Source: a virus
DNA: 49,371 nt
Strand: one strand, 5' to 3'
Virus record (IMG/VR): IMGVR_UViG_3300009285_010806
Location: 1-49,371 of that record
Shown here: in pieces, positions 6,633 through 44,960 of the stretch
Layout: every line of letters begins with the position of its first letter
Position numbering within the stretch: the first letter of the stretch is position 1
Notes under the pieces: model-generated
Database searches by the model: none
Seen by the model: only the letters and a program-made list of their open reading frames with translations
What the model was told of the DNA's origin: nothing
Translations under genes and position numbers: made by a program

Positions 6633-6636
6633 AATC

Positions 6637-13379: not shown

Positions 13380-15881
13380 TTAGAAAATAATTCCCTTTGC
13401 TTTCATCAATCTTTCATCAAAAATATCTTTTGCTGAAGGAGCAAATTTAATTACCTCGCTCAGCATTCCCTTCACAGTTGACTTAAAATCTTCAATATCA
13501 AGTTCTATTTCTTTTTCACAAATTTCTAAAACAGGAGCTTCTTCCATTTCCACATCAATTTCAACTGATTTTGCTTTAGGTTTTTTAATTTCATTAATTA
13601 ATTCTTTTTGCCCCTGAATTTGTTCTAAAGCTTTCATTAAGGCAACATCTATCTCAATAGATTCATCTTCAGAAATCATTTGAGCTAAATCAACTAACTC
13701 TTTTAAATAAGCTCCAGAAAAATTTTCAGTTTTTTGAACAAATTCATCAATATTATACTTATCGGCATTTTTAATCCATTTCTTTAACATTTTCTTTCTG
13801 TTATCTTCATTTGGCATTGAAAATTCAACAATGTGATGAAAACGACCAGGACGATCAATTAAAGCATCTGGCAATTCTTCTGGAAAGTTAGAAGTAAGAA
13901 TAGTAAGCACTCCTTTATTATTTCTAATTCCATCCATTTCGGTTTTTAAAAGGTCAACAGTATATCCATTCAACCAAGTATCAATGTCTTCAATAAAGAA
14001 AATAGAAGGAGCTAATTCTCTTGCCATTTCAAAACCAAGCCCAAGAGTATAATTAGCAGAATATTTAAAATCTTTTGAAGATGCCCAAATAAAAGTAGTA
14101 TCTGATTTTTCCATTAAAACGCGGCCGCAACGAGTTTTCCCATTGCCAGGCTTGCCAAAGAAAATCATCCCCCTACTATTTTTTTCTTTTGATAAATGTT
14201 CTACATTTCTTTTAATTACATTTTTTGTTTCATCAGATGGGAAAATAACATCTTCCCACTCAATTCCTGTTTTTTCTAAAAATTCTCCCCCAACTGAAAA
14301 TTTTTCGCCCTTCAAAAGGTTATTTTCTTTTGCCCATTTGACAGAATCAGAAATAATTCCCTTAAGAAAATCCGACTGGTTTTTATGAGAAAAGAAAACT
14401 ATCTCATTCCCACCCCAAGAAGGAATATATTGAATAACAAAATTTTCAGCATCTTTAGATTTATAAAACCTTGTCCCTGAAATTAAGAATTCTTCTGCCT
14501 TCTTAGAATCAAGCTGAATAATTTCATAATTTAACGGAACCTCAAACCCGTTATAAGTAAAATTTCTTTCATCTAAAAGAGAATGAGGAGATAAAACATT
14601 TTTAAAAGCACTAAAATAATTCCCCGTCATTGCATGAGGAACAAAAAATGCTGTAGTAAAAATATCCTTCACCTTGCACTTCAAAAATTTAGTAAAAATC
14701 TTATATTCAAAACCATATGGCTCAGTTTTCACTTGCGTAATATCAAAATCTTCTCCATATTGCTTTTTAACAATTTCGGTTTTTTGTTTTTCATCTAAAT
14801 TTTTAACATTTAAAGAGTTTAACAATTTCTGAATTCTTTCAACTTCAGTTTGTTCATTTTTTATTTCAACTTGTTTTTCCTCTTGCTGGCTTTCTTTTTG
14901 AACAATTTCTAATTCCTTTTCGATTATTTCATCAAGGGAAAATTCTAGAATTTCATCATTCCCTTCTTTCTTTTCATTTTTCAATTCGGCTATTTGCTTC
15001 TCAAATAAATCTTCTCTTTCTTCTTCCCCCAAGCTATTCCATTCATCAACAGAAAGACAAGATTTCTCAAATGCCTTAGCCACCAAACCACCAAGAGAAA
15101 TTACAGCCCCATCGAATAAATTGATATCAGAAGGCAATTTAGAACTACCCAACAATGACTTTATATCATCTTCTTCCAATTTTTCTGCTTCTTCCTTTTC
15201 GCAATTACAATTTTCGCAATTATTTTCACATTCTTTCTTTTCCAAATCAATAAAACCAACTACTTTTGCCTTATCTTCATCTTGAACTGTAATTAATTCA
15301 ATATATTCAGGAGACTCTTTAATCTTTACTACAAGTTCTTGGATTTCTTTAGATTTAATTAATCCTTTTTGCTCACAATCAACTAAAGACTTAACATTTC
15401 TAATAATATTGGCATCTGGACATGCTGGAATAGAAACAGCTGACAGCTCAAGAAGCTCTACCTCTTCATAAACTGTATGGGGAACGCTCCCGTCTTTATC
15501 TTTATATTTTACTTCATCCTCATTGTCATATTCTTTAATTGGGCGAAACCCCACTGAAAATGAATTCATAAATCCATTAGAATAAAGATAATATAATTCA
15601 TTTCCCAAATCCGTACTAGCAAACTGAATTTTAAATTTTAAACCCTTTTCATCCGGTTTCTGCCAAAGAGACTTCCCCACAGGCAAAGAATTATATGAAT
15701 GATTAAGCAATATCACAGGGTTTTTACGATAATTTTTCAACCCTTTTTCCGTCCAAGCACTCGGCAAAATCATCTCCCCGTGACGATCTGTCGAACCAGT
15801 TGACGCATAACAAACAATGCTTCGCTCATCATCCCTATTTTCATTCTTCTGAATATATGCAAACATTTTATTTTCTAGCAT
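13380..15881 (-). CDS. Prohead protease (S78) fused to an AAA+ ATPase
   Basis: The ATG at 15881 (AGGAGG 6 nt upstream) gives 833 residues; a GTG at 15884 is too close. Residues 1-165 are an HK97-type prohead protease: LLNHSY (His near 61), NSFSVGF (Ser near 109) and ELLELSAVSIPACPDA. Residues 200-370 are acidic, coiled-coil-like, with a cysteine cluster near 218-228. Residues 385-550 are an unrecognised domain. About 565-760 form an AAA+ module: Walker A GKPGNGKT near 576-583, Walker B IFFIEDID near 627-634, sensor 1 TSN near 664, RPGRF arginine finger near 677-681, and sensor 2 GAYLKEL. Standalone proteases of this family are about 200 residues. The fusion suggests ATP-driven handling of scaffold or capsid during maturation (inference). 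It lies immediately before the capsid gene. Confidence 0.85.
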   Translation of the reverse strand: MLENKMFAYIQKNENRDDERSIVCYASTGSTDRHGEMILPSAWTEKGLKNYRKNPVILLNHSYNSLPVGKSLWQKPDEKGLKFKIQFASTDLGNELYYLYSNGFMNSFSVGFRPIKEYDNEDEVKYKDKDGSVPHTVYEEVELLELSAVSIPACPDANIIRNVKSLVDCEQKGLIKSKEIQELVVKIKESPEYIELITVQDEDKAKVVGFIDLEKKECENNCENCNCEKEEAEKLEEDDIKSLLGSSKLPSDINLFDGAVISLGGLVAKAFEKSCLSVDEWNSLGEEEREDLFEKQIAELKNEKKEGNDEILEFSLDEIIEKELEIVQKESQQEEKQVEIKNEQTEVERIQKLLNSLNVKNLDEKQKTEIVKKQYGEDFDITQVKTEPYGFEYKIFTKFLKCKVKDIFTTAFFVPHAMTGNYFSAFKNVLSPHSLLDERNFTYNGFEVPLNYEIIQLDSKKAEEFLISGTRFYKSKDAENFVIQYIPSWGGNEIVFFSHKNQSDFLKGIISDSVKWAKENNLLKGEKFSVGGEFLEKTGIEWEDVIFPSDETKNVIKRNVEHLSKEKNSRGMIFFGKPGNGKTRCGRVLMEKSDTTFIWASSKDFKYSANYTLGLGFEMARELAPSIFFIEDIDTWLNGYTVDLLKTEMDGIRNNKGVLTILTSNFPEELPDALIDRPGRFHHIVEFSMPNEDNRKKMLKKWIKNADKYNIDEFVQKTENFSGAYLKELVDLAQMISEDESIEIDVALMKALEQIQGQKELINEIKKPKAKSVEIDVEMEEAPVLEICEKEIELDIEDFKSTVKGMLSEVIKFAPSAKDIFDERLMKAKGIIF
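13759..13786 (-). promoter_or_regulatory. Sigma-28-like sequence inside the protease-ATPase gene
   Basis: On the minus strand it reads TAAA, 16 nt, GCCGATAA, the same spacing as the five intergenic copies and a perfect -10 octamer. The GTTT extension of -35 is missing. It lies about 485 nt upstream of the capsid start and could give extra capsid mRNA. Because it is in coding sequence it could also be chance. Confidence 0.35.
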
Positions 15882-15895
15882 CACTATCCTCCTAA

Positions 15896-18020: not shown

Positions 18021-19400
18021 TTAGATTTCAAGCAATTGATTCAATTGTTTAGGCGATGAAACTATATTTCCCTCACTAGATCCATTTACGATGCTAGCCA
18101 AAAGCCCCTGTTGATTCGTATAATTGACAGGAATAAAGGGGTCAGAAAAAACACCGCCCTTAGGATCTAGCCCTATCTTAATTCTTTCTTCATCCACAGA
18201 AGTAATAGAAGTCTGAATCCTTTTTACCGATTCATTTAAATCTTGATCCCTATTAGAAGGAATGCACTCATCATACATAACAAATAATCGAGAATCATAA
18301 TTACCTATCAACTTCTCATTCAATTTTTCTTCATTTCTAAGAAGTCTTGGCTTAATGCCAAAACGCATATAAGTAGAAATAGCAGCTTCAGCATTATTCC
18401 TATTAGCCTCTTGTGAATATAGTCCAAGTGGTTGATTATATGCATTAAGAATCATTTCTCTAATAACTTCCCGCCCCTTTAAATGACTCATCTCTTTAGG
18501 AGTAACATTTAAGGGTTTATATTTTAACCCATTATCAACTAATGGTTGTTTGCCAGAATTAATAGCCCCACCAAAAGATTGCTGAAGTTCTTGCTTGAGC
18601 CTTTCAAACTCGTGGTCGCCAAGATTTTCATCTGTCTCCCAAACACCCGAAATTGCACCAAAATTGCGGAACATGGCCTCTTCATAAATATTGATCGATT
18701 TAAACAGACCAAATTCTTCTGCTATGCTGCTAAACGGAGGAAATCCATAATATTGACTTCGTGGATTAGACATTTTAAAATGTATAACTTGCCTCTCAGC
18801 TAAATCAATCTCTTCAGACCCCTTTATATATTTATACCCCTTAATAAATTTTTGCTTATCTGGAACAATCTTTATATTTTGAGTAGGGATAATCCAAAAT
18901 TCCTTTGGTATTCCAATTTTATTTTCTAATACATAAATATAAGCATTCCCTGTTAATTCCAAAAAAAGCTGGATAGTCTCTTTAAAATCAAATTGGTTCA
19001 TAAACCCATTAATATTTCTCATTGAATCCAAAAATGGGTGTTCGAGAATTTCCTGAAATTCAACTGCTTTTTTAACGGCAGGAAGCCCTTGCAATGTTGG
19101 GCTTTCTTTAATTTGCTTTTCTACATTTTTTTCTACAGTCCTTGCTTCATAACCCTTTAATTTTTGCCCCTTATTATTCTTTGCCACATACAAACGCAAT
19201 GGAACACTAGCGCAAGAAACTGCATTTTTCCCAGCAGCTACATATATCCACCCCTTATACGAATTTACCATCTTATAATAATCATCTTCGCTATACAACT
19301 CCCTACCATATTGCCAATTATACAACCAGGGCAAAGCACCTTTTCTTGGTCTGCCCGGCCCTTTAGCTTTTAATCCAATTTCATAATCAAATGGGTTCAT
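18021..19400 (-). CDS. HK97-type portal protein
   Basis: The protein has 459 residues. The family features are in order: SYKGWIYVAAGKNAVSCASVPLRLY (residues 48-72), FLELTGNAYIYVL (about 145-157), IPTQNIKIVPD, AERQVIHFKMSNPRSQYYGFPP (about 205-226), FGLFKSINIYEEAMFRNFG, and NAYNQPLGLYSQEANRNNAEAA (about 325-346). It forms the dodecameric DNA entry/exit ring on which TerL docks. Length and position directly after TerL are normal. Confidence 0.93.
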   Translation of the reverse strand: MNPFDYEIGLKAKGPGRPRKGALPWLYNWQYGRELYSEDDYYKMVNSYKGWIYVAAGKNAVSCASVPLRLYVAKNNKGQKLKGYEARTVEKNVEKQIKESPTLQGLPAVKKAVEFQEILEHPFLDSMRNINGFMNQFDFKETIQLFLELTGNAYIYVLENKIGIPKEFWIIPTQNIKIVPDKQKFIKGYKYIKGSEEIDLAERQVIHFKMSNPRSQYYGFPPFSSIAEEFGLFKSINIYEEAMFRNFGAISGVWETDENLGDHEFERLKQELQQSFGGAINSGKQPLVDNGLKYKPLNVTPKEMSHLKGREVIREMILNAYNQPLGLYSQEANRNNAEAAISTYMRFGIKPRLLRNEEKLNEKLIGNYDSRLFVMYDECIPSNRDQDLNESVKRIQTSITSVDEERIKIGLDPKGGVFSDPFIPVNYTNQQGLLASIVNGSSEGNIVSSPKQLNQLLEI

Positions 19401-19731: not shown

Positions 19732-21462
19732 TTAAACCATCCGTATCCGTGGGACACTTGGATTATAAAAGCACTGTATTAATGAATCAGCCCAATCAGG
19801 ACTTCTTCCCAATTCCTTTCTCATTCCTTTTTTATCTGTTACCCGAATTCGCCCATTGCTAGGGTCTTCATAAAATTCAGGGACAAGCAATTCTCTTTTT
19901 AAATCATTATTATCTGGCAACATCGCTGAGGGGTCAGTACGCAACCATTCTCGAACAGCCCACCACAATTCGTCCCTTATATGCCAAAACCTCCCTATTT
20001 CGCATTTTTTTTCACTTGGAGCTGAAACATATACTTTTTTTACATTTATATGCCCTTTCACCAAATCTACATCTTTACATTTTGGGCATTTTATGATATT
20101 TTGATCATGATAAGGAGATTGGCACTCAGGACAACGAAAATAAGAATATCTCCCTAATTTCGGAGGGATAGCAGCCCCAATGCCATCAGACTCAATATTA
20201 ATTTGATAAGCATTTACATTAGCGTAGATTATAGCTGTTTTTGAAGAAGAAAGATCTGTATCAATTCCTCCCCATCTTTCAAAACCAGCAACAAATGATC
20301 CATATTTTTTGCAGATGCAACAATAATCAGCTCCTTCATCAGCAACATCCATTCCTAATAATGGCAGAATCCCTTCAGTTGCCTTATCTCCATATTGAGC
20401 CTTATAAAGTTTCCATCTGACAATAGCCTGATTTATCCATTCTTCATTAATTAATTGATTAGCAGAAAAAGGAGGGTAAACGCCAAGAACAACATATGAA
20501 AAAGCATAATTTGTAATTCTTCTAATTCCTCCCTGTAATGGAGGATACTCTTGCCCTGAGCCACTTTTAACAATTGTCCCTTCTAAGAATTTAGGAACTT
20601 CAAAACAATTTCGATCTATCTCTTCTCCATCTATTAAAGGCGCTGTCCACTCAATAATTCTCTGAACAGTTTTCTTTCTTGTAACAGCTCCGTCTATTAA
20701 ATTTTCTCCAGTGACAACATTTGGATGGTTAAAAGCATTTAAAGAAATTACATTGGCTCTACCATTTTGAATCAACTCATAAGCTCGCCCCAATCTTCTC
20801 TTGGGGTTATACATTATAAGCATTCTAGCCCATTCACCAGATTGACAACCATCCATCCCTATATAAATTTCATCAGGAACTGCGTCTCCCTCGTCTAATA
20901 TAAAAAATTGATACGGAGCATGATATCCGGAAAATTTAGAAATCTTCTCTTCACTATCTCCAGCAGAGGGAATAACAATCCCATAAATCATATGTTTTTC
21001 TTTATCGTCACCTTCATCGTCCCCAAATTTTTCCAAATCTTCACAAATTTTAAAAGATAATTTTCTATCTTTAGCGAATAATTTAGGTTTCCTCCTCGCC
21101 CACCCTTTTATCTCTTGCCAAAGTTTTTCTAAATTTCTTTCAGGAGGCGCCGCAACTGTTAAAATTTGTGAATTGGGATAACATCTGTATATCCACACCG
21201 CAAGCGCAGAAGCAAGCCAAGTTTTACCATATGCTGTACATGATTGTGCTACAGTTACTTCATTATCTCTAACTGATTCCGCTACCTTCACAAGAGCATC
21301 AGGGAGGTACTTCACATCAAGTTCTTTTTGAATAAACCCTACCGGATCATTTTGATAAAAAGAATAATCCCTTTCTTCTAAGAATTTTCTGATTTCATCA
21401 TCAGAATAGCTCCCCATTATATCATCAGCAATTGCCTCAATATCTAATTCTTCAAAATTCAA
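19732..21462 (-). CDS. Terminase large subunit (TerL)
   Basis: The protein has 576 residues. The ATPase half has a deviant Walker A, QSCTAYGKTW (about residues 73-82), then a Walker B with the catalytic acid, FFILDEGDAV (about 186-195), and the coupling motif MYNPKRR. The RNase H-like nuclease half starts with GMDVADEGADYC (about 370-381) and ends with RSPDWADSLIQCFY. A CxxC-x12-CxxC zinc ribbon (CPECQSPYHDQ...CPKC, about 439-458) is inserted in the nuclease half, which is not a standard TerL feature. It pumps and cuts DNA at the portal. The gene follows TerS. Confidence 0.93.
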   Translation of the reverse strand: MNFEELDIEAIADDIMGSYSDDEIRKFLEERDYSFYQNDPVGFIQKELDVKYLPDALVKVAESVRDNEVTVAQSCTAYGKTWLASALAVWIYRCYPNSQILTVAAPPERNLEKLWQEIKGWARRKPKLFAKDRKLSFKICEDLEKFGDDEGDDKEKHMIYGIVIPSAGDSEEKISKFSGYHAPYQFFILDEGDAVPDEIYIGMDGCQSGEWARMLIMYNPKRRLGRAYELIQNGRANVISLNAFNHPNVVTGENLIDGAVTRKKTVQRIIEWTAPLIDGEEIDRNCFEVPKFLEGTIVKSGSGQEYPPLQGGIRRITNYAFSYVVLGVYPPFSANQLINEEWINQAIVRWKLYKAQYGDKATEGILPLLGMDVADEGADYCCICKKYGSFVAGFERWGGIDTDLSSSKTAIIYANVNAYQINIESDGIGAAIPPKLGRYSYFRCPECQSPYHDQNIIKCPKCKDVDLVKGHINVKKVYVSAPSEKKCEIGRFWHIRDELWWAVREWLRTDPSAMLPDNNDLKRELLVPEFYEDPSNGRIRVTDKKGMRKELGRSPDWADSLIQCFYNPSVPRIRMV

Positions 21463-22647: not shown

Positions 22648-22738
22648 TGGCGGAAAGTAGAGGATTTGAACCCCTGTAAGTTTTACCTTAACCTTTGATT
22701 AGCAATCAAGTGCATTAACCAGACTCTGCCAACTTTCC
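22648..22738 (-). tRNA. tRNA-Ser(GCT)
   Basis: The acceptor stem is GGAAAGT/ACTTTCC with discriminator G and an encoded CCA. The anticodon loop TTGCTAA gives anticodon GCT (codons AGC/AGU). The long variable arm and the TTCAAAT T-loop fit a bacterial class II serine tRNA of 91 nt. It is the distal of two tandem tRNAs in the late operon. Confidence 0.93.
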
Positions 22739-22743
22739 ATTTT

Positions 22744-22830
22744 TGGTGGGAGAAGAAGGACTCGAACCTCCAAGTTTTAAAACTACTACCGGGTTACAGC
22801 CGGGTGCGTTACCACTTCCGCCATTCTCCC
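22744..22830 (-). tRNA. tRNA-Tyr(GTA)
   Basis: The acceptor stem is GGGAGAA/TTCTCCC with discriminator A and an encoded CCA. The anticodon loop CTGTAAC gives anticodon GTA. It has a long variable arm, as in bacterial tyrosine tRNAs, and a TTCGAGT T-loop; 87 nt. It is 5 nt from the serine tRNA, so the two are probably processed from one transcript. A CCA-adding enzyme is encoded at 39538. Confidence 0.93.
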
Positions 22831-25090: not shown

Positions 25091-25620
25091 CTATTGTCTG
25101 CTCTTAAAACATTTAATTAAAAGATATTTATATAGGGGTTTTAAAAATTTATCGATATCTAGTTTAGAAGAGTATTTAACAAATTTATTAAATCTACTTT
25201 GCAAGAGTTATACCTGATAGATTTAATCATATTAAAGATCTGAAAAATTTATTTTATCTGGATGAAATGAGATAGGTTTAAAAATGCTTAGAATAGTCCT
25301 AGAATCGTTTTATGGGAGTTAGCATAGTTTGGTATTCGAAAATATTTTGCGTTGATTGTAGAAGAATTGATATTTAAATCATTGTTTTTACTACGTTTTA
25401 TTTTTTGAATATGAGAAAACTATGAAATACTGTTGGAATAGATTTTGCTACAGGGTAAAAAGCTAAGAAATGGCTATATGGATACGGAAAAAAATAATAA
25501 AAATAGTGATGATTTTTTATTGACGAATATTTTTAGGCATGTTAAAAATTAATCTACATTTTGATTCATGACTGGAACGAAGGGCTGAGGGATAAAAACT
25601 CAAAACATAGGGACACGAAA
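25091..25620. other. A+T-rich gap before the plus-strand genes
   Basis: No coding sequence is convincing. A possible plus-strand promoter is TTGACG (25520-25525), 17 nt, TAAAAA (25543-25548); its -10 is poor. The stretch presumably carries early promoters for the plus-strand block. Confidence 0.4.
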
Positions 25621-25812
25621 ATGATGGCAAAAAGGGCCTGCACGAAATGGGGATTTTTGGCAGAATTGCAACTTGAAGGACAGCCCCATTGGAGACTAGA
25701 GAGGTGGGCTGAAACACAGGCCGCATATTTTGCCACCGAGCGTGCGCAACAACTCGCCGTTGGTGGTGGTCTTTTGGGTCCCGAATCCCGATTAATGCAG
25801 TGCGGAGATTAA
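25621..25812 (+). CDS. Small hypothetical protein heading the cassette
   Basis: Two adjacent ATGs begin at 25621 after GGGA. The 63-residue protein (MMAKRACTKWGFLAELQLEG...) contains HWRLERWAETQAAYFATERAQ, an amphipathic helix, and ends near a cysteine. Codons are visibly more G+C-rich than in the flanking late genes. The leader sequence before it is repeated before the next gene. Confidence 0.45.
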   Translation: MMAKRACTKWGFLAELQLEGQPHWRLERWAETQAAYFATERAQQLAVGGGLLGPESRLMQCGD

Positions 25813-25838
25813 AAACTCAAAACATAGGAGATACGACG

Positions 25839-25973
25839 ATGCGAATCAACACATACACTTTTGCAGACGGTTCTTCCTGCCAGGCTCCGACGTTAGAGCT
25901 GGCTATCGCGATCCAAAAAGCGGCCGGAAATTCGACGCGCCCTGTCAAAATGCAGACAGGGAATAAAAATTAA
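25839..25973 (+). CDS. 44-residue hypothetical protein
   Basis: It starts MRINTYTFADGSSCQAPTLE and contains AIAIQKAAGNSTRP. The start follows AGGAGATACGACG, the ribosome-binding leader shared by several genes of this cassette. The stop is 12 nt before the next tiny gene, whose ribosome-binding site overlaps the stop. Function unknown. Confidence 0.5.
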   Translation: MRINTYTFADGSSCQAPTLELAIAIQKAAGNSTRPVKMQTGNKN

Positions 25974-25985
25974 GGAGATACGGCA

Positions 25986-26039
25986 ATGAATGATAGCAGT
26001 TGGATTGATTTTAATTCTTTTGGGCACTATGTAAATTAA
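25986..26039 (+). CDS. 17-residue putative microprotein
   Basis: It reads MNDSSWIDFNSFGHYVN, with AGGAGATACGGCA directly before the ATG. Its stop lies 12 nt before the amidoligase start. A consensus initiation region supports translation, perhaps as a leader peptide that couples or tunes the amidoligase gene. Confidence 0.4.
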   Translation: MNDSSWIDFNSFGHYVN

Positions 26040-26051
26040 AGAGGAATAACC

Positions 26052-27374
26052 ATGGAAAACTATCAGTCCACCTTGTCCGGCTCATATCTGCACCATCCCG
26101 GCAGTCAAAAAATCCTGGTATCATACCGGTTATGGGATTTTTTGCCAATGGCTAATATTATCGAGGGTAGTTGCTGTCATTGTAGCTCTTATTCCGGACC
26201 ACGATATTGGATTGATGATTCCGAATATTGTGGAGACTGCTGCAAGCCATGCAATTGCTGCGGTACATATATTAATATCCATGATAGGAGCAATCAAAAA
26301 ATTGATCATGGGCTATATATTTGCGAGGACTGCCTTGAAACACATTATTTTACCTGCAATGATTGCGAAGGGATTTATCCGCGCGACGAAATGAACGACC
26401 TAGGGAGTGACTATACCGGCTATGTTTGTGATGATTGCCACTTGGAATATTCCGAGTGCGATAGATGCGGCAGTACAGTATTACGAGATACCCTTGAAAT
26501 TATTGACGGTGACCAGATCTGCTCTGATTGTGTGAGAAATAATTTTACCCAATGCAATCAATGTGATAATTATTATCTCGACGAACTCAACATATGCCCA
26601 ATTTGTCATCCAAATCCTATGACCGATTACCACGAGATAGATGTAGCCGTAAAATATGGATTTGGCGAGCCAGGTACATTAATAGCTTCGCAATCCCCAT
26701 ATTTTTTGGGATTAGAGCTTGAATACAATGCGGATGAAAATGATTTTGAAGAGGACACAACAGAGGAAATAGGAAAAATTTTAGACGGATTTGCAATAAT
26801 GGCAAGGGATAGCTCCGTCACGTGGGGCGAAATCATTACCCGGCCTGACGATTTACCTACTATTTTAGATAAATTTGAAGAACTTTGGAAAAATATCCCC
26901 TTCCGGGAAAATGGGCTGGTCATTTCCCGGAAGGGGAGCAAGACGGGGCTGCATATTAATATCGATAAAAGCGCCTTTACTGACATAAATGCTATTGCTT
27001 TTTTTGTCATGATGATTACCAATAATCCCCGATATTCTAAATTTATTGCAGGACGTGACGAGCTATATAATTGTGATTATACGACCAAAACGCAAACCGA
27101 TGTAATCGCGGAAATCAATGGGCACAGCGCGAAATATCAGCCGGTCTGCATCAAAAAAGACCGGCTGGAAGTCCGGATTTATCTCTCTACAAGTCGAATA
27201 GATTTTTTACAAATGCGCTGCGAGCATACACTAGCACTAGCTGATTACAGCAATATTTGCAGCAAAAACAACCGCCTTCCGGATATTGCCGATTTTCTGA
27301 AATTTGTTGACCAATATCAAGAGCAATATCCGGAACTCCACAAAAGAAATCAACAATACCAGGAGGATAAATAA
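26052..27374 (+). CDS. Zinc-ribbon amidoligase (Amidoligase_2-like)
   Basis: The protein has 440 residues. Residues 40-190 hold about ten C-x2-C or close variants (for example CEDC 91-94, CNDC 102-105, CDDC 126-129, CDRC 136-139, CSDC 157-160, CPIC 182-185), a chain of zinc knuckles. Residues 218-355 match the carboxylate-amine ligase fold of the amidoligase family related to glutamine synthetase: GLELEYN (219-225), ARDSSVTWGEIITRP (251-265), GLHINID (299-305) and RLEVRIY (341-347), supplying acidic metal-binding and substrate residues. Such enzymes form amide or isopeptide bonds with ATP. A glutamine amidotransferase starts 2 nt after its stop, a pairing known for this family. Two perfect G+C-rich inverted repeats lie within the gene. 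Confidence 0.75.
   Translation: MENYQSTLSGSYLHHPGSQKILVSYRLWDFLPMANIIEGSCCHCSSYSGPRYWIDDSEYCGDCCKPCNCCGTYINIHDRSNQKIDHGLYICEDCLETHYFTCNDCEGIYPRDEMNDLGSDYTGYVCDDCHLEYSECDRCGSTVLRDTLEIIDGDQICSDCVRNNFTQCNQCDNYYLDELNICPICHPNPMTDYHEIDVAVKYGFGEPGTLIASQSPYFLGLELEYNADENDFEEDTTEEIGKILDGFAIMARDSSVTWGEIITRPDDLPTILDKFEELWKNIPFRENGLVISRKGSKTGLHINIDKSAFTDINAIAFFVMMITNNPRYSKFIAGRDELYNCDYTTKTQTDVIAEINGHSAKYQPVCIKKDRLEVRIYLSTSRIDFLQMRCEHTLALADYSNICSKNNRLPDIADFLKFVDQYQEQYPELHKRNQQYQEDK
26897..26936. repeat. 14-bp perfect inverted repeat inside the amidoligase gene
   Basis: CCCCTTCCGGGAAA (26897-26910) and TTTCCCGGAAGGGG (26923-26936) flank a 12-nt loop. A second perfect stem, CAGCCGGTCT/AGACCGGCTG, lies at 27138-27167. 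Such stable stems inside coding sequence are unexpected and may affect mRNA structure or bind a protein. Confidence 0.6.
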
Positions 27375-27376
27375 CA

Positions 27377-28003
27377 ATGTGCCTCATTGTTTGCAGCAAT
27401 AACGGATTCAAAAATGTGCCTATTGATATTTTTGAAGAGGCTTATTACAGCAACCCTGACGGATTTGGAATTATGTGGGGAGACATTATCACAAAGGGTC
27501 TATTCAACTTTGATGAAATTTTAACGCTCATTGATGATTGCCCCAAAAATAGACCTGTTGCAATACATTTTCGACTTGCTACCCATGGCGAACCCTCAAA
27601 ATCACTGTCTCACCCATTTGAGACTAATTGTCCCGGAGTGATTTTGATGCATAACGGTATTTTAAATCAATCATATTGCAGGCAAGCAAAGGAAAGCAAC
27701 GTTTCTGACACTGCAATCTATGCCTTAGCATATAATCGCCCATGGCACCTATCGTCTGAGTGGAGAAAAAGAGAGGGAAGGCGCATCGGGCATAATAAAC
27801 TTGTCTTCCTCGACTCTGTCCTTGGAAATCTCTATATTGTAAATCAGCAACTAGGCACTATCCAATTTGATTGTTGGTTCAGCAATTGCAATCAATTGTG
27901 GGATTATAATGATACCAATTATCATGACTTGCGTTTTAATGCATATGACGATGGCCGGCATAGTCAAAGTCTATATGATAGATACAGACGTATAACAGAT
28001 TAA
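27377..28003 (+). CDS. Class II glutamine amidotransferase
   Basis: The 208-residue protein is an Ntn-hydrolase GATase. After Met removal the N-terminal residue is Cys2 (MCLIVCSNNG), the nucleophile. It is followed by NPDGFGIMW (near 26-34), IHFRLATHGEP (near 68-78), LSHPFE and ILMHNGIL (near 94-101). It releases ammonia from glutamine for a partner synthetase. There is no synthase domain in the same chain, so the amidoligase encoded 2 nt upstream is the likely partner. The ribosome-binding site is AGGAGGATAAATAACA. Confidence 0.85.
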   Translation: MCLIVCSNNGFKNVPIDIFEEAYYSNPDGFGIMWGDIITKGLFNFDEILTLIDDCPKNRPVAIHFRLATHGEPSKSLSHPFETNCPGVILMHNGILNQSYCRQAKESNVSDTAIYALAYNRPWHLSSEWRKREGRRIGHNKLVFLDSVLGNLYIVNQQLGTIQFDCWFSNCNQLWDYNDTNYHDLRFNAYDDGRHSQSLYDRYRRITD

Positions 28004-28028
28004 ATCAGAGCAACTAGGGAGGTGCTTA

Positions 28029-28130
28029 ATGATCTTTCCTGCACAACGTTACAATCAATATTTTCTCAACAATGGGCGGCATCCCAATTTTTGGATGCTA
28101 AGAAAAACCAAAATCCAATTAGGAGATTGA
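28029..28130 (+). CDS. 33-residue microprotein
   Basis: It starts MIFPAQRYNQYFLNNGRHPN and has GGGAGG 6 nt before the ATG. The end of the gene contains the AGGAG used by the next gene, whose ATG lies 4 nt after the stop. It is aromatic- and asparagine-rich; function unknown. Confidence 0.45.
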   Translation: MIFPAQRYNQYFLNNGRHPNFWMLRKTKIQLGD

Positions 28131-28133
28131 CCA

Positions 28134-28436
28134 ATGAAGAAGATTACAGTTATTGCAAATGGCGAAGTATGCGTAACTTTCGAAGTTGATGGGAAGCAAT
28201 TTTCAAGGCTTAAGGATGCTATGAAAGAAAAATTCAAAATCCAGGAGGGATTTTATCAAGAGGTTTTTGGTGTAAACTCAGCCGATGCAGAATTAGCAAA
28301 TTGGCATCCAAGTGATGCCAATTTTGATCTCGCCTGTAGTGGCTGGGAAAAATTTTTGAAGGATAAGGGGCAAGTCAAAAAAACCACCACAGAAGAAATG
28401 ATAGATTTGAAGACTTATTTCTTCGGCGAAAATTAA
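28134..28436 (+). CDS. Hypothetical cassette protein
   Basis: The 100-residue protein opens with a beta-hairpin (MKKITVIANGEVCVTFEVDG). A helical middle (LKDAMKEKFKIQEGFYQEVFG) and an acidic end follow. It could be a small adaptor or substrate for the neighbouring ligase; no family recognised. A very stable hairpin lies just after its stop. Confidence 0.5.
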   Translation: MKKITVIANGEVCVTFEVDGKQFSRLKDAMKEKFKIQEGFYQEVFGVNSADAELANWHPSDANFDLACSGWEKFLKDKGQVKKTTTEEMIDLKTYFFGEN

Positions 28437-28445
28437 CCATCCTTG

Positions 28446-28492
28446 CACATTGCAGGAGATAAATTGCACAATGGTTTATCTCCTGCAATGTG
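28446..28492 (+). terminator. 18-bp perfect hairpin after the first half of the cassette
   Basis: CACATTGCAGGAGATAAA (28446-28463) pairs perfectly with TTTATCTCCTGCAATGTG (28475-28492). Outer TTAACCA/TGGTTAA (28433-28439 and 28497-28503) extend the stem. No T-run follows, so it may act as a processing or stability element rather than a terminator. The stem contains an AGGAGAT sequence like the cassette's ribosome-binding sites. Confidence 0.5.
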
Positions 28493-28527
28493 AGAGTGGT
28501 TAATAACAGATAGAGGAGGCAATAATT

Positions 28528-28833
28528 ATGCCATGCTATGAAGTGAGATTGACATCAGTTGAGTTTATCGCCGAAAATTTAGAGCTACTAAAAAAAGCTC
28601 TAACAGCTGAAAGCTGCAAATATACGATCAAAAACAACATTGTATATCTCTCAATATGCAATACAACGATTGACCTGGAGAAAAGGATTGCAACTGGCTC
28701 GAATCAATCTGTCTTGAATGCGCTAAAACGAGCATACAGCAGAGAAGTTGTGAAGATGGCAGCCAAGGCCAAAAATTGGAATTTGCAACAGCAACAGAAA
28801 TCGCTTAATCAATATATTGCTGTAAAATATTAA
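28528..28833 (+). CDS. DUF1257 (Ycf35)-like protein
   Basis: The 101-residue protein starts MPCYEVRLTSVEF. It then has LLKKALTAESCKY and a C-terminal LKRAYSREVVKMAAKAKNWNL followed by a final strand, the alpha/beta layout of DUF1257/Ycf35 proteins. That family is commonly encoded with a DUF2997 protein and a Ycf46-type AAA+ ATPase; the next two genes fit exactly. Biochemical role not established. Assignment is by pattern and context. Confidence 0.5.
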   Translation: MPCYEVRLTSVEFIAENLELLKKALTAESCKYTIKNNIVYLSICNTTIDLEKRIATGSNQSVLNALKRAYSREVVKMAAKAKNWNLQQQQKSLNQYIAVKY

Positions 28834-28844
28834 GGGGAAATTCA

Positions 28845-29045
28845 ATGGCCGATAAAATCAATATCGAGATCCTTGAGGACGGTACAATATCCATAAACAC
28901 TGATAAAATCTCACAAGCAAACCATGTTTCAGCGGATAAGCTTTTAGCTGAAATTCAGAAACTTGCAGGGGGAAAAACCGACATCAAGAAAAAAGCCGGA
29001 CATGCCCGATTACATGAGCATAACGGGATTTTCCATAAACATTGA
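28845..29045 (+). CDS. DUF2997-like small protein
   Basis: The protein has 66 residues: a beta start with INIEILEDGTISINTDKISQ, then SADKLLAEIQKLAGG, and a histidine-rich end (HARLHEHNGIFHKH). The 'DG-x-(I/V)' strand followed by a helix resembles DUF2997, and the position between the DUF1257-like and Ycf46-like genes supports this. The histidine-rich end could bind metal. Confidence 0.5.
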   Translation: MADKINIEILEDGTISINTDKISQANHVSADKLLAEIQKLAGGKTDIKKKAGHARLHEHNGIFHKH

Positions 29046-29086
29046 TAGATGGATTGAACGACTTATTACGCTAAGGAGAAACGACA

Positions 29087-30523
29087 ATGGAAAAGATGAA
29101 TTTTCTTTCATATCTTGATGCTAATTACCCTCTGCTTTTGATTGCCTCTTATGAAGAAGAGCGAGTTATTGCAGAATTGTCAAAACAAGCAGAAGGATAT
29201 AATTGTTTCCACTGGGATATTGTAGATGGTTTTCGTAATTGCAATGGACAAAAAACACAGGATTGCAACAACCCAGTTGAAGCCCTATCTATTGCAATAT
29301 CTTTGGAAATATCTTCCGTTGTATTTTTCAAAGATTTTCATCGTTTTACAGATGAGCTTGAGTTTTGTCGTACTACAAAATCAATTATTGCAGAGCTAAA
29401 AAAACGAGATATCCATATTGTATTTCTGGCTCCAAAAATCAATATCCCGATAGAGCTGGAAAAAGATATCACTGTAATTGATTTCCCATTGCCCGATATT
29501 AATGAACTTATAACTGTTGCGCAAAAGCTTATTGATAGTAACCCTGAGTTAAACTTAACTATCGATAGCAATATCATTGCAGGAGCACGAGGATTAACAC
29601 TAATGGAGGCTGAAAATTCTTTTGCTCGATCAATAATTACAGCAAAGGCTTTTGACCGGGAAATTCTTGAGACTGAAAAACTGCAAATAGTCAAAAAATC
29701 CGGATTAATGGAAATTTACCCGGCCGAATCTATCAATAATGTCGGCGGGTTAAAGCCCCTAAAAAAATATATTGAGTCTCGTAAGCGTGGCTTTTTTGAT
29801 GCTAAACTACCGACTCCACACGGTATTCTTTTAGCCGGATTGCCAGGAAGCGGCAAAAGCCTTGCTGCAAAAGCCATTGCAAGTGTCCTTGGAATGCCCT
29901 TAATTCGATTAGACCTTGGAACACTGAAAGGTTCTCTTGTTGGCCAGTCTGAGGAAAACATGAAAAAAGCCTGCAACATGATTGATGCAATTTCTCCATG
30001 CGTCGTTTGGCTTGATGAAATTGAGAAATCATTAGCGGGAGTTACCGGCAGTGCAGGAACAGACAGCGGTACATCCGCTAATATGTTTGGACAATTGCTA
30101 ACATGGATGCAGGAAAGCAAAGCTCAAAAATATATTGTAGCGACTTGCAATGATATTGATGATTTACTTTCATTGTCACAAGGAGCTTTAATCCGCCGTT
30201 TCGATGATATTTTCTTTGTTGACCTACCGAACAATCAGGAAAAACAAGAAATTCTAGCGATAATGAAGCGGAAATATAATGCAGAGAGCCTTGATTGTTC
30301 AGGGGCCTCTATGGATAAATGGACAGGAGCAGAGATCGAGAAATTTATCATCAATGCTCTTTATGATGGAGTGGGAGCAGCAGCAAAAAATATTCGGCCA
30401 ATTGCTATACAAAATCAGATTAAGATTGACAAAGCCAGAGAATGGGCTAAATATAACGCTATATGGGCAAACGAACAAGAAAGCGAGCCTATAACAACAA
30501 TCGGAAGAAAGCTCAAAGTTTGA
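29087..30523 (+). CDS. Ycf46-like AAA+ ATPase
   Basis: The 478-residue protein has an N-terminal domain (1-200) with LLLIASYEEERVIAEL and VVFFKDFH, like the inactive first half of Ycf46 proteins. The AAA+ core follows: INNVGGLKPLKKYIE (216-230), Walker A GLPGSGKS (251-258), Walker B VVWLDEIEK (306-314), sensor 1 ATCND (352-356) and ALIRRFDDIFFVDLP (367-381), the characteristic Ycf46 segment with arginine fingers. It probably forms a hexamer that remodels a protein substrate. The start follows AGGAGAAACGACA, the leader also used by the next gene. Confidence 0.8.
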   Translation: MEKMNFLSYLDANYPLLLIASYEEERVIAELSKQAEGYNCFHWDIVDGFRNCNGQKTQDCNNPVEALSIAISLEISSVVFFKDFHRFTDELEFCRTTKSIIAELKKRDIHIVFLAPKINIPIELEKDITVIDFPLPDINELITVAQKLIDSNPELNLTIDSNIIAGARGLTLMEAENSFARSIITAKAFDREILETEKLQIVKKSGLMEIYPAESINNVGGLKPLKKYIESRKRGFFDAKLPTPHGILLAGLPGSGKSLAAKAIASVLGMPLIRLDLGTLKGSLVGQSEENMKKACNMIDAISPCVVWLDEIEKSLAGVTGSAGTDSGTSANMFGQLLTWMQESKAQKYIVATCNDIDDLLSLSQGALIRRFDDIFFVDLPNNQEKQEILAIMKRKYNAESLDCSGASMDKWTGAEIEKFIINALYDGVGAAAKNIRPIAIQNQIKIDKAREWAKYNAIWANEQESEPITTIGRKLKV

Positions 30524-30565
30524 AATTTTCTTATAACCCAATCCATGAGAAAAGGAGAAACGACA

Positions 30566-31453
30566 ATGAAAGATCTTAGCAATATTTTCAACTCATGCTG
30601 TCTGTTGCAGGTTTCTTGCTCGATTTGGCCAGGAAAAAAGGGCATCGACAAGAAAAAAGTCAAAGAAGCTCTTGATACGGAATGGGCAAGCGGCAAGAAA
30701 AACACTGTGAATAAAGATGAATTGAAAGCATTAAATAACCTCAGAACTTCAATTCATTTGTTTGTAAAATCCTACACAACTCCATTTCCAATTGACGGCA
30801 TCAATATGGTTTCGTTCGGACTTGTAGAGAGAGTAGAAAAAGAATTGAAAGAGACCTTTCTTCCACAATTCAATGAGCTTGCCGACAATTTCTGCTCTAA
30901 ATATCCGGAGCTAAAGCGGCAAGCACGAGAAGAACTTGAGCCCAAAGGGTTATATGATGAAAAGGATTACCCTCGCAATATCGATGAACATTTTAACCTT
31001 ATCTGGCGTTTTGTTACAATACAAGCGCCAGGAGAAAATTCTTTGCTGTCTCCGGAAATTGTAAAACGGGAACAACAAAAATTTATTGATACAATTCAAG
31101 AGGCTCAAGATTTAGCTTTATCTGTTTTACACGATGAACTTGCCAAGCTGGTCCGGCATTGCGTGGAACGTCTCACTCCGGAAAAAGATGGAACTCCAAA
31201 ACAATTCAGGAAAAACACTATTGAAAACTTTCAGACTTTCTTTGAATCGTTCAAGGAAAGAAACGTTTTCAACAATAAAGAGCTAACTAAGCTCGTGGAA
31301 AACGCAAAGAAAATCATATCCGGTGTTAATCCTGAGCAATTGCGAGATGATGCGCCATTTAGAGATAAAATACGAGCGTCCTTAGCCGGTGTTTCAGAAC
31401 AAATCAACAACGCTATTGAAAACGCTCCATATCGGAAGCTAAGAATTAGATGA
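30566..31453 (+). CDS. DUF3150-like protein
   Basis: The ATG at 30566 follows AGGAGAAACGACA; an upstream in-frame ATG lies before that site. The 295-residue protein is largely helical: CCLLQVSCSIWPGKKG at the start, NNLRTSIHLFVKSYTTPFPIDGINMV, then long charged helices. This is the pattern of DUF3150 proteins, which accompany AAA+ ATPases in phages and mobile elements. It is likely the client or partner of the Ycf46-like ATPase. It overlaps the next small gene as ATGA. Confidence 0.65.
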   Translation: MKDLSNIFNSCCLLQVSCSIWPGKKGIDKKKVKEALDTEWASGKKNTVNKDELKALNNLRTSIHLFVKSYTTPFPIDGINMVSFGLVERVEKELKETFLPQFNELADNFCSKYPELKRQAREELEPKGLYDEKDYPRNIDEHFNLIWRFVTIQAPGENSLLSPEIVKREQQKFIDTIQEAQDLALSVLHDELAKLVRHCVERLTPEKDGTPKQFRKNTIENFQTFFESFKERNVFNNKELTKLVENAKKIISGVNPEQLRDDAPFRDKIRASLAGVSEQINNAIENAPYRKLRIR

Positions 31454-31575
31454 TTGATTGTTTTATCAGAGTCTATGATTGCTTCCAAAAAATCATAGAC
31501 TCGAATAAGGCGGTCAATAATAAGAGAGCTTCAAAATCAATCCTGGCAAAAGAGCTAAAAGAAATGATCTATTAA
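31450..31575 (+). CDS. 41-residue protein coupled to the DUF3150 gene
   Basis: The ATG overlaps the DUF3150 stop (ATGA). The peptide starts MIDCFIRVYDCFQKIIDSNK and ends with a basic helix (KSILAKELKEMIY). Start-stop overlap favours real translation. Function unknown. Confidence 0.5.
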   Translation: MIDCFIRVYDCFQKIIDSNKAVNNKRASKSILAKELKEMIY

Positions 31576-31597
31576 CCAACAATCAGGAGATTGAGCT

Positions 31598-31894
31598 ATG
31601 AAGATGCTAGAAGTCAAAGGGAATACTTATCCGGTAAAAGACCAAATTAAAGCATTAGGTGGTAAATGGGACGCAACAAAAAAAGTTTGGCTTGTTCCTG
31701 ATTATAATATAGGGCAAGCTAATTTAATCGTTGCAAAAGGTAGTGAAACACAAAAGAAAAAACCTTTCCGATACAAAAAGTGTGTTGTTTGTGGAGTTGT
31801 ACAGACCTACAATAAAAGAGGATATCCAAATGTAAAAATCTATCGCAATGGAGAATGTCAAGATTGTTATGAAGAAAGAAAGATGGGGTACTAA
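31598..31894 (+). CDS. DUF5710-like protein with a zinc knuckle
   Basis: Residues 1-36 (TYPVKDQIKALGGKWDATKK, then VWLVP) match the short 'D-x-I-K-A-L-G-G-x-W-D' domain that occurs in phage and plasmid replication or relaxase-type proteins. Residues 60-95 hold CVVCG and CQDC, a probable zinc ribbon. A nucleic-acid-binding role is likely by family. AGGAGATTGAGCT precedes the ATG. A strong terminator follows, closing the cassette. Confidence 0.6.
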   Translation: MKMLEVKGNTYPVKDQIKALGGKWDATKKVWLVPDYNIGQANLIVAKGSETQKKKPFRYKKCVVCGVVQTYNKRGYPNVKIYRNGECQDCYEERKMGY

Positions 31895-31895
31895 A

Positions 31896-31942
31896 ATCAA
31901 AAAGGTAAAAGGGTAAAATAAAAACCCTTTTACCTTTTTGAT
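31896..31942. terminator. 19-bp perfect terminator hairpin
   Basis: Bases 31896-31914 (ATCAAAAAGGTAAAAGGGT) pair perfectly with 31924-31942 around a 9-nt loop. The U-rich 3-prime arm (CCTTTTTGAT) makes it an effective terminator. It marks the right boundary of the G+C-richer cassette. Confidence 0.7.
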
Positions 31943-31991
31943 GTTTAAGAAGTGAAAATATTATATCCATTTATTTTTAAAAGGTATTTAT

Positions 31992-32453
31992 ATGAAATTC
32001 TCTACTGTTATTTCTTTAATACCAGATCTTCACATAACCATGTCCGGAAAAGAAAATTATCCGGTAACTGGTGATATGATTTCAGTGGACCAGATAAGAG
32101 AAATAATAAGCAAATTTAAAGGACTCCCTCTTTATGCCGGCTGCTTTGAAAAAGCAAAAATTGCTCAAGAATTTATCCCTGGTGCAGATATAATCGTCGG
32201 CGCTATGAGGATATTGAGCAAAGATCGATTATCAATGTATGGCTATGACTTTAAACCACCATTAGAAAGTCATAGCTGGTTAATGGTGCAGAATAAAATT
32301 ATTGATTTTGCTTTGCCTGGAACGATTTTAAGGGGTCTCAAAGAACGAGATGAAATCGGCCCATTTTTAATTGGCAGAGAGCCTATAATTATCATCGGTA
32401 CTGTTCCTGATTGGGTATTTTATAAGCCTGTACATAAAATAAAATTTATATAA
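31992..32453 (+). CDS. Transglutaminase/papain-like fold protein (putative)
   Basis: The 153-residue protein has a possible Cys-His-Asp set in the order of bacterial transglutaminase-like proteins: AGCFEKAKIAQ (Cys near 50), PLESHSWLMVQNK (His near 94) and IIDFALPG (Asp near 105). IVGAMRILS lies between, as in related proteins. Such enzymes cleave or cross-link peptides. The evidence is motif spacing only. It starts after the terminator that closes the previous cassette. Confidence 0.45.
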   Translation: MKFSTVISLIPDLHITMSGKENYPVTGDMISVDQIREIISKFKGLPLYAGCFEKAKIAQEFIPGADIIVGAMRILSKDRLSMYGYDFKPPLESHSWLMVQNKIIDFALPGTILRGLKERDEIGPFLIGREPIIIIGTVPDWVFYKPVHKIKFI

Positions 32454-39537: not shown

Positions 39538-40836
39538 ATGGACCATTTAGAGATTATAAATAAGTTAAAAGAAAATAACCATCAAGCCTTTATTGTAGGG
39601 GGAATCCTCAGAGATGAATTATTAGGAATAGAATCTCGGGATATAGACATAGCCACATCGGCTTATCCTCTTCAAATATGTGAAATTTTTAAAAACTCAA
39701 AACCTCTTTTAGTTGGGGAATCTTTTGGAGTAGTCCTTATCGATAGCTATGACGTAGCAACTTTTCGGTCAGACAGGTATAATGGGCTAGATCATAAAGA
39801 CTGCAAAGTTTCTTTTGTTGATACAATTGAAGAAGATTTAGCAAGAAGAGATTTCACTATAAACGCTCTTGCTCGTGATGGAGAAAAAATCATTGATCCC
39901 TTTAATGGCGCAGAAGATTGCAAGAATAGAATCATTCGCTTTGTTGGCAATCCCCAAGATAGAATCAACGAAGATCCAGACAGAATAATTAGGGCTTGTC
40001 GATTCCTAGCTAAAATAGAGGGGGAATTCGAAAAAAATACTTTTAGTGCTTTGAAAAATAATGCTAGGCTTATTCAATACATAGCTCCTGAAAGAATAAA
40101 AATTGAAATATTAAAAGCCTTAAATATTAAAAATGCTTCTATGTTTTTTGAAGCATTACATAACATTGGTTGTCTAGAATATATTTTCCCCCGCCTGAAA
40201 GATACCTGTCATCATAACCATGGCAAATTTCATAGAGAAACAGTGTGGGATCATTGTATGGTTGTAGGAGATTGTATTTCCACAAAATATCCTTTAATTA
40301 AATTAGCTGGCTATCTTCACGACATTGCAAAACCGACTTGCTATATTGAAGATTCTTTTATTGACCATGAAATTATTGGAGCCTCTTTTATTGAAGAAGA
40401 TTTAAAATTCTTAAAATTTTCAAATGTCGAAATAACTTTTGTTGTTGGTCTTATAACTAATCACATGAGAAGTATAACAACCGATTTTAGTTACAAATCT
40501 GCAAGAAAAGCTATTAAATCCCTTTCTTTTTATAACTGTTCCTATAAGAATTTTTTACGGCTTAAAATAGCAGATAGGCAAGGAAATTTATTTAAAGAAC
40601 CATATTCTATCTCTTTGCTAAAAGATACTATCAAGAAATTTCAAGATAACCGGGATATGCCTTTGTCTACTCACGACTTGGCAATATCCGGAAAAGAAAT
40701 TATTGATTTATTAGGAATTCAGCCAGGACCATTAATCGGACAAATACAAAGAAAATTGTTGACATTTGTTATTGAGACTGGTATTAATGACAAAGATGTT
40801 TTGATTCAAGAAATTAAAAAAAATATGGAGGATTGA
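39538..40836 (+). CDS. cca: tRNA nucleotidyltransferase (CCA-adding) with HD domain
   Basis: The 432-residue protein has the class II nucleotidyltransferase head: FIVGGILRDELLG (19-31), RDIDIATSA (catalytic DxD, near 35-43), RRDFTINALA (near 103-112) and DPDRIIRACRFLAKIEG (near 145-161). An HD phosphohydrolase domain follows with HHNHGKFHRETVWDHCM and GYLHDIAKPT. It adds or repairs the 3-prime CCA of tRNAs. The phage tRNAs already encode CCA, so repair after nuclease attack is a possible purpose. AGGAAGCAAA precedes the ATG. Confidence 0.88.
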   Translation: MDHLEIINKLKENNHQAFIVGGILRDELLGIESRDIDIATSAYPLQICEIFKNSKPLLVGESFGVVLIDSYDVATFRSDRYNGLDHKDCKVSFVDTIEEDLARRDFTINALARDGEKIIDPFNGAEDCKNRIIRFVGNPQDRINEDPDRIIRACRFLAKIEGEFEKNTFSALKNNARLIQYIAPERIKIEILKALNIKNASMFFEALHNIGCLEYIFPRLKDTCHHNHGKFHRETVWDHCMVVGDCISTKYPLIKLAGYLHDIAKPTCYIEDSFIDHEIIGASFIEEDLKFLKFSNVEITFVVGLITNHMRSITTDFSYKSARKAIKSLSFYNCSYKNFLRLKIADRQGNLFKEPYSISLLKDTIKKFQDNRDMPLSTHDLAISGKEIIDLLGIQPGPLIGQIQRKLLTFVIETGINDKDVLIQEIKKNMED

Positions 40837-43923: not shown

Positions 43924-44076
43924 AATCGGGGATACTGTTAGATGTTTGGTACATGTAAAATTCTGTGATGGACAGAGCATAAAACCGGGAGTTTGCACAT
44001 AATAACAAAAGAGACAGAAGCTTATTATAATAATAAATGCAATAATTATAAATATTTTTTGGAAAAAAGAAAATGA
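43910..44076 (+). pseudogene. Frameshifted SH3-like small gene
   Basis: The ATG at 43910 begins MIEFKIGDTVRCLVHVKFCD and stops at 44000-44002. The adjacent frame (GSLHIITKETEAYYNN...) runs to a TGA at 44074-44076 that overlaps the ATG of the next gene in ATGA fashion, as intact genes here do. A single indel near 43985-43990 probably broke a gene of about 55 residues. A programmed shift is less likely because no slippery heptamer is evident. Confidence 0.5.
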
Positions 44077-44960
44077 TTCTGAATAACCTCAACTCCCAAA
44101 ACCTTATTCATCCTCCACCATGGCTAATAAGCAATGTCCATTATTTAACTATGATGGGAAGCATTGCCTACGGTGTTTCAAATGAGTCTAGCGATATTGA
44201 CATTTATGGGTTTTGTATTCCTCCAAAACATATCATATTTCCAAATATAAATGGGATTCTTATTGGCTTTGATAATAATTATGAACAATTCGAGCAATGG
44301 CAAGAACACCATATAAAAGATATTTCTAAAAATAAAGAATATGATTTTTCAGTATATAATATAATTAAATATTTTAGGCTATGTGCCAACTGTAATCCAA
44401 ACATGATTGATTCTCTATTTGTTCCAAGAAGATGCATTCTTCATATTACCCAATTAGGGGAAATAGTAAGAGAAAATAGAAAAATATTCCTAAATAAGCA
44501 AGCTTGCCATAAATTTCGAGGCTACGCATTTGCCCAAATGCACAAAATGAAAACAAAGAGCCCTCAACTTGGATCAAAAAGAGATCAACTGGTAAGTACC
44601 TATTCTTACGACGTTAAATATGCTTACCATTTAGTTCGCTTAATTGATGAAGCAGTACAAATCCTCACAGAAGGAGATTTAGATTTAGAAAGAAGTAGAG
44701 AAATATTAAAAGCAATCAGAAGAGGAGAATGGACACAAGAGCAAATTGAAGAATATTTTGCGACTAAAGAAAAACATCTTGAGAAATTATATGAAGAGAG
44801 TAAATTGCCATATTCTCCTAATGAAGCCAAAATAAAACAATTGCTTCTTAACTGTCTTGAGCAACATTATGGAAATTTATCTGCTTGCATAGAAATACCA
44901 GCAAAAGAAAAACAAGCGTTACTTGATATTAAGAAAATCATTGACGGAGTTGTAAAATGA
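44073..44960 (+). CDS. RlaP/PF10127-type nucleotidyltransferase
   Basis: The 295-residue protein has the polymerase-beta-type nucleotidyltransferase core MMGSIAYGVSNESSDIDIYG (27-46), with GS and DxD residues. CNPNMIDSLFVP (near 108-119) and a helical C-terminal region with KFRGYAFAQMHKM follow, as in predicted phage nucleotidyltransferases of family PF10127. It would transfer a nucleotide to RNA, protein or a small molecule; the substrate is unknown. It overlaps the next gene as ATGA. Confidence 0.75.
   Translation: MILNNLNSQNLIHPPPWLISNVHYLTMMGSIAYGVSNESSDIDIYGFCIPPKHIIFPNINGILIGFDNNYEQFEQWQEHHIKDISKNKEYDFSVYNIIKYFRLCANCNPNMIDSLFVPRRCILHITQLGEIVRENRKIFLNKQACHKFRGYAFAQMHKMKTKSPQLGSKRDQLVSTYSYDVKYAYHLVRLIDEAVQILTEGDLDLERSREILKAIRRGEWTQEQIEEYFATKEKHLEKLYEESKLPYSPNEAKIKQLLLNCLEQHYGNLSACIEIPAKEKQALLDIKKIIDGVVK

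Follow-up and report, generated by a model that had tools for sequence, protein, structure and literature searches.

The analysed DNA, hereafter the window, is a linear IMG/VR virus contig of 49,371 b, whose genes lie on the − strand in the left arm and on the + strand in the right arm. We assigned the contig to a tailed phage because it encodes an HK97-type portal (18021-19400) and because the product of the gene at 19732-21462 is distantly related to proteins of Salinibacter and Pseudomonas phages. After a long stretch at ~24.2-25.5 kb in which a convincing gene was not found, the rightward operon, which is probably early, starts with the block at 25621-31894 (Table 1). All the block genes that an earlier note had named were present where it placed them on the + strand, and their identities as amidoligase, glutamine amidotransferase (GATase), DUF1257, DUF2997, AAA+ ATPase and DUF3150 were confirmed by profiles, conserved residues and an AF2 model. 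The amidoligase and the GATase are denoted as module A, and the DUF1257, DUF2997, AAA+ and DUF3150 genes as module B. A 26-nt leader is present twice, at 25593-25618 and at ~25810-25836, ahead of the two micro-ORFs that open the operon. The 100-aa protein had no homologue in Pfam, PHROG or viral-locus comparisons.

Table 1. Features at the start of the rightward operon of the window
Feature	Position	Strand	Basis or remark
Micro-ORF, 63 aa	25621-25812	+	Preceded by leader that is repeated at ~25810
Micro-ORF, 44 aa	25841-25973	+	ORF list
Module A: amidoligase, PF12224-type, GS-fold carboxylate-amine ligase	26052-27374	+	Conserved residues, AF2 model
Module A: class II (Ntn) glutamine amidotransferase, Cys2 nucleophile	27377-28003	+	Conserved motifs
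100-aa protein	28134-28436	+	Between GATase and DUF1257 genes
Module B: DUF1257-family (Ycf35-like) protein	28528-28833	+	Profile and L012 orthologue
Module B: DUF2997-family protein	28845-29045	+	Weak directly, solid via L012 orthologue
Module B: CDC48-like AAA+ ATPase	29087-30523	+	Walker A from residue 251, Walker B from residue 306
Module B: DUF3150 protein	30545-31453	+	PF11348, AF2 pLDDT 88
DUF5710-containing 98-aa protein	31598-31894	+	Domain match 3.3e-6
Hairpin, possible terminator	~31896-31943	.	dG -26.5 kcal/mol, z -7
p31992, 153-aa protein	31992-32453	+	Accompanies module B in closest relative L012, 42% identical

The block had been described earlier as richer in G+C and as closed by a strong terminator, and both descriptions were borne out in part. 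The G+C content of the block is 0.38-0.41 against about 0.30-0.33 in the right arm, but the structural genes (4-7 kb and 10-13 kb) reach about the same level. Considering that other parts of the window are similarly G+C-rich, we rejected the G+C content as a sign of foreign origin. The hairpin after the DUF5710 gene is perfect and strongly stable, but a separate T tail is absent on the + strand. Moreover, the hairpin is not the right border that it had been taken for, since p31992, which lies beyond it, is common to L012, the contig whose module B is most closely related to that of the window.

Several other genes of the window were recorded on the way. At 13380-15884 on the − strand, adjoining the likely major capsid gene (12021-13274), an 834-aa fusion protein contains both a prohead protease domain of the HK97/S78 type (TIGR01543, 1.2e-16) and, at residues 573-760, an AAA+ domain that is CDC48/PAN-like. 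Its relatives were found on 12 IMG/VR contigs, most of them with both parts and largely as ORFs of 739-1017 aa, and no GenBank phage record covered 80% of the protein. Such a union of a prohead protease with a motor of the unfoldase type merits its own study. Genes for tRNA-Ser and tRNA-Tyr lie at 22648-22830, and the right arm encodes a CCA-adding-type nucleotidyltransferase (39538-40836), an RlaP-type RNA-repair nucleotidyltransferase (44073-44960) and a GIY-YIG protein (47011-47622).

The amidoligase is a protein of 440 aa in which N-terminal zinc ribbons with 11 CxxC motifs are followed by the catalytic domain. Searched alone, it returned no Pfam match and did not reach the gathering score of PF12224, a score that its homologue in L003 reaches (39.6 bits). 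The GxExE, D-S..G-E, G-H and E-R residues of the PF12224 family are present in the window protein, and G220, E222, E224, D253, S255, E260, G299, H301, E373 and R375 are invariant in 26 sequences and kept in the window. When the AF2 model (mean pLDDT 72, with the catalytic part mostly better) was compared using Foldseek, the Pup ligase PafA, glutamine synthetase (GS) and YbdK were matched at 1.3e-4, 2.3e-4 and 4.1e-4, respectively, with low TM-scores of 0.24-0.31. The model argues with moderate strength for a GS/carboxylate-amine ligase fold. A close relative of the window amidoligase was not found, plasmid records yielded no relative of it, and a weak match in one cellular genome was discarded as it spans the zinc-ribbon columns only. 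The hypotheses on amidoligases reportedly go back to Iyer in 2009.

The GATase starts exactly 2 nt after the amidoligase, just as the earlier note had given it. While its match to GATase_6 (E=1e-4) is under Pfam's cut-off, the window copy retains Cys2 and the HFR..T.G, HP, HNG and SDT motifs, all of which are conserved in 48 sequences. Judged by these motifs, it is an intact class II glutamine amidotransferase, for which glutaminase activity is predicted. The family-invariant positions are thus intact in both proteins of module A.

The amidoligase and the GATase form an already known phage pair, as had been claimed. Of the 41 GATase loci that have an amidoligase, 38 have it at -23 to +101 nt upstream, often with overlapping stop and start codons; where no amidoligase is present, the locus is at a contig edge or is a tandem of four GATases. 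This tandem, at 5681-8852 of L092, consists of four class II GATase genes, with no amidoligase detected. As in the window, a PF12224-type ligase directly precedes a class II GATase in the OM43 phages MEP401/402, Stenotrophomonas StenR_269 and Pseudoalteromonas PSA-HP1, and in all of these the pair is located near the start of the early region, ahead of replication genes, which is often the place of such pairs in other phages. In contrast with these pairs, the window ligase has 440 aa and 11 CxxC motifs, and the identity is only about 22-30%.

Phage sets of amidoligase, GATase, gamma-glutamyl cyclotransferase (GGCT) and ATP-grasp genes have been described as peptidoglycan modification cassettes (PMC5498523; PMC10580990; PMC11318856). 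Module A may therefore be a reduced cassette of this kind that amidates peptidoglycan peptides, for instance against superinfection, a reading that we consider credible at somewhat below an even chance. It agrees with L003, where GGCT, amidoligase and GATase occur together, and with StenR_269, which has the whole cassette set. On the other hand, when roughly 30 proteins of the window were scanned with Pfam, no GGCT, GS-like or ATP-grasp partner was visible, in contrast to the phiEco32-type cassette. In addition, a measured activity was not found in the literature searched, and an enzyme of lipid II would not be expected to carry zinc ribbons. These ribbons may point to a different substrate. 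Six or more CxxC motifs were found in 9 of 30 homologous amidoligase ORFs, with few or none in the remainder, and because the count differs in this manner, the zinc ribbons seem to be a variable recognition part. It is possible, and we hold it tentatively, that the ribbons direct module A to a substrate that is a protein or is bound to nucleic acid, and whose amidation might, for instance, switch off or protect a factor of the host or the phage. Against PDB sequences, the amidoligase profile shows a weak similarity to zinc-ribbon nucleic-acid-binding proteins, which is consistent with such a substrate, but these matches were at chance level only (E at least 0.14).

In the case of module B, the AAA+ ATPase matched PF00004 at 2e-22 and phrog_8638 at 1e-93, and its N-terminal region is conserved. 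The label 'Ycf46-like' refers here to the AAA+ group and to the DUF1257/DUF2997 neighbours, not to a comparison with a named cyanobacterial Ycf46. For DUF1257 and DUF2997, we relied on profiles from which the window and its near relatives had been excluded and on the L012 orthologues: the DUF1257 protein was recognized at 3e-5, and the DUF2997 protein, at 0.016 directly, is 54% identical to an L012 orthologue that itself scores 1e-5. An IMG/VR scan with the AAA+ ATPase as a single protein gave no match, so alignments were needed, and cellular genomes were scanned with the window/L012 pair as the query. At least one of DUF1257, DUF2997 and DUF3150 was present at 38 of the 86 viral or phage AAA+ loci, and all three at 21. 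Relatives of the AAA+ ATPase were also found on 711 plasmid records, 594 of them conjugative, and those on cyanobacterial plasmids share about 31-37% identity with the window protein. According to public annotation, a Manganitrophus plasmid has the order AAA-DUF1257-DUF2997-DUF3150 and a Nostoc plasmid the order DUF1257-DUF2997-AAA, while IncC plasmids have AAA-DUF2997; these conjugative plasmids carry the module B set without DUF3150. On one of these, pP99-018 (L318), an AAA+/DUF1257-like/DUF2997 module occupies 4641-7229; its AAA+ type is 33.6% identical to that of the window and is present in many enterobacterial plasmids.

The recurrent association of Ycf46-like, DUF1257 and DUF2997 genes, as the earlier note had stated it, thus holds in viral, plasmid and cellular loci, and AAA+/DUF1257/DUF2997, with or without DUF3150, is a conserved module that occurs in phages, on plasmids (IncC and cyanobacterial) and in the genomes of bacteria and archaea. 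The modules of Rhizobium phage L338C, Pseudomonas SM1, Tunturi_3, IncC and the Manganitrophus plasmid share with the window a CDC48-like AAA+ ATPase with the conserved N-terminal region and the DUF1257 and DUF2997 neighbours, with DUF3150 in a subset of them. The gene order of the window, DUF1257-DUF2997-AAA-DUF3150, differs from that of L338C and the Manganitrophus plasmid, in which the AAA gene comes first. In cyanobacteria and plastids, Ycf46 and a cluster of Ycf35 (DUF1257), DUF2997 and Fed7 have been described (PMC4284462); the DUF1257 and DUF2997 neighbours and the broad AAA+ group are the same in the window, whereas a ferredoxin is missing there. The motor also resembles conflict proteins, since PADLOC models of IetA match it at 5e-21 and a SpoVK/Ycf46/Vps4-group AAA+ protein is the antitoxin of SgiAT in SGI1 (PMC10954446). 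A role of module B in anti-phage or plasmid-stability conflict, like that of IetAS (AAA+ plus subtilisin), nevertheless seems very unlikely: the match is limited to the AAA+ domain and gains 66 of the 510 bits set as the curated NCBIfam IetA cut-off, and a subtilisin (IetS) partner was not identified in the block.

DUF3150 has a wider range of partners. The window protein matched PF11348 at 3e-8 (33.6 bits against a curated cut-off of 24.9) and was still found, at 3e-54, when the window and its closest relatives were left out of the profile, while its AF2 model had no fold match in the PDB (best E 0.42) and the literature searched did not mention the family. The AAA+, DUF1257 and DUF2997 genes were all present at 18 of 57 DUF3150 loci. 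At about 20 viral loci, such as L274 (8993-12006), DUF3150 is instead flanked by a small AAA+ ATPase on one side and by a DUF2201 metallopeptidase/VWA protein on the other, an arrangement similar to the MoxR-vWA-peptidase pair reported for jumbo phages (PMC7824862). DUF3150 stands beside an AAA+ gene in both settings, but the AAA+ type differs, and the window block has no peptidase/VWA partner. Since DUF3150 accompanies two different AAA+ motors, it is suggested to be an interchangeable, motor-swapping AAA+ partner or adaptor, outside any amidation pathway.

The adjacency of the two modules on one strand might suggest a single pathway, in which the AAA+ ATPase would unfold or present a target protein and the amidoligase-GATase pair would amidate or tag it. 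In pupylation, a GS-fold ligase acts together with an AAA+ unfoldase, and PafA was the top PDB match of the amidoligase model, but the fold matches glutamine synthetase and YbdK about equally. The earlier note had proposed such a unit and a search for conserved co-occurrence in related phages, and when this survey was run, no joint occurrence was found. Module A was absent at all 86 viral or phage AAA+ loci. In the surveys, loci were picked by similarity to the query, many records are fragmentary, and some loci represent one and the same contig (e.g., L012, L214 and L256). In searches of whole virus records, an amidoligase was found in 0 of 73 AAA+ records, using a search that recovered 14 of 16 known positives, and an AAA+ ATPase in 0 of 38 GATase records, where the known positives were recovered as well. 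Likewise, neither amidoligase nor GATase was detected around 57 DUF3150 loci, and module A was not near any of 80 cellular AAA+ loci. The 12 records found via the head protease gene of the window, most of them short fragments, did not contain module A, nor a module-B-type AAA+ ATPase apart from the AAA+ domain of the protease itself.

The closest relative is the most direct comparison. L012, whose AAA+ ATPase is 61% identical to that of the window, is a 34-kb contig on which only the genes for DUF1257, DUF2997, AAA+, DUF3150 and p31992 are shared with the window. Module B stands first in the operon of L012, and the amidoligase pair is absent. The lack of any joint occurrence outside the window rules out an obligate link between modules A and B and is compatible with a rare or lineage-specific one. 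Considering these surveys and the solitary module B of L012, we regard the single pathway as very improbable. A lineage-specific, pupylation-like version, in which an ammonia-fed zinc-ribbon ligase would modify proteins and the AAA+ ATPase with DUF1257, DUF2997 and DUF3150 as adaptors would unfold them, appears extremely improbable, as the conserved ligase and AAA+ co-occurrence of such a system is absent from the surveys.

Taken all together, the block is likely to consist of two independent phage modules that abut at the start of the rightward operon, where A would amidate and B would remodel separately. Elsewhere, modules A and B each have primase, DnaB helicase or polymerase genes as neighbours in phages, and this shared insertion site near replication genes provides a simple reason for their meeting. 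The two appear to have been brought together by random shuffling and not as parts of a single new machine. Against the two-module view, both lie on one strand in one run of genes and may be co-transcribed, and as G+C is similar throughout the two modules, a recent independent arrival is not demonstrable. From family membership and context we infer that in module A (26052-28003) the GATase would free ammonia from glutamine, and that the amidoligase would activate a carboxylate with ATP, probably as an acyl phosphate, and then form the amide. The likeliest substrate would be a carboxylate of a host cell wall peptide, as proposed for phiEco32-type phages, while the zinc ribbons may point instead to a protein or nucleic-acid-bound one. 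In module B (28528-31453), the CDC48-like AAA+ motor, presumably a hexamer, would remodel a protein or nucleoprotein complex with DUF1257, DUF2997 and DUF3150 as its helpers. As such, the tempting reading of the block as one machine is corrected, and two widespread, functionally uncharacterised modules are told apart.
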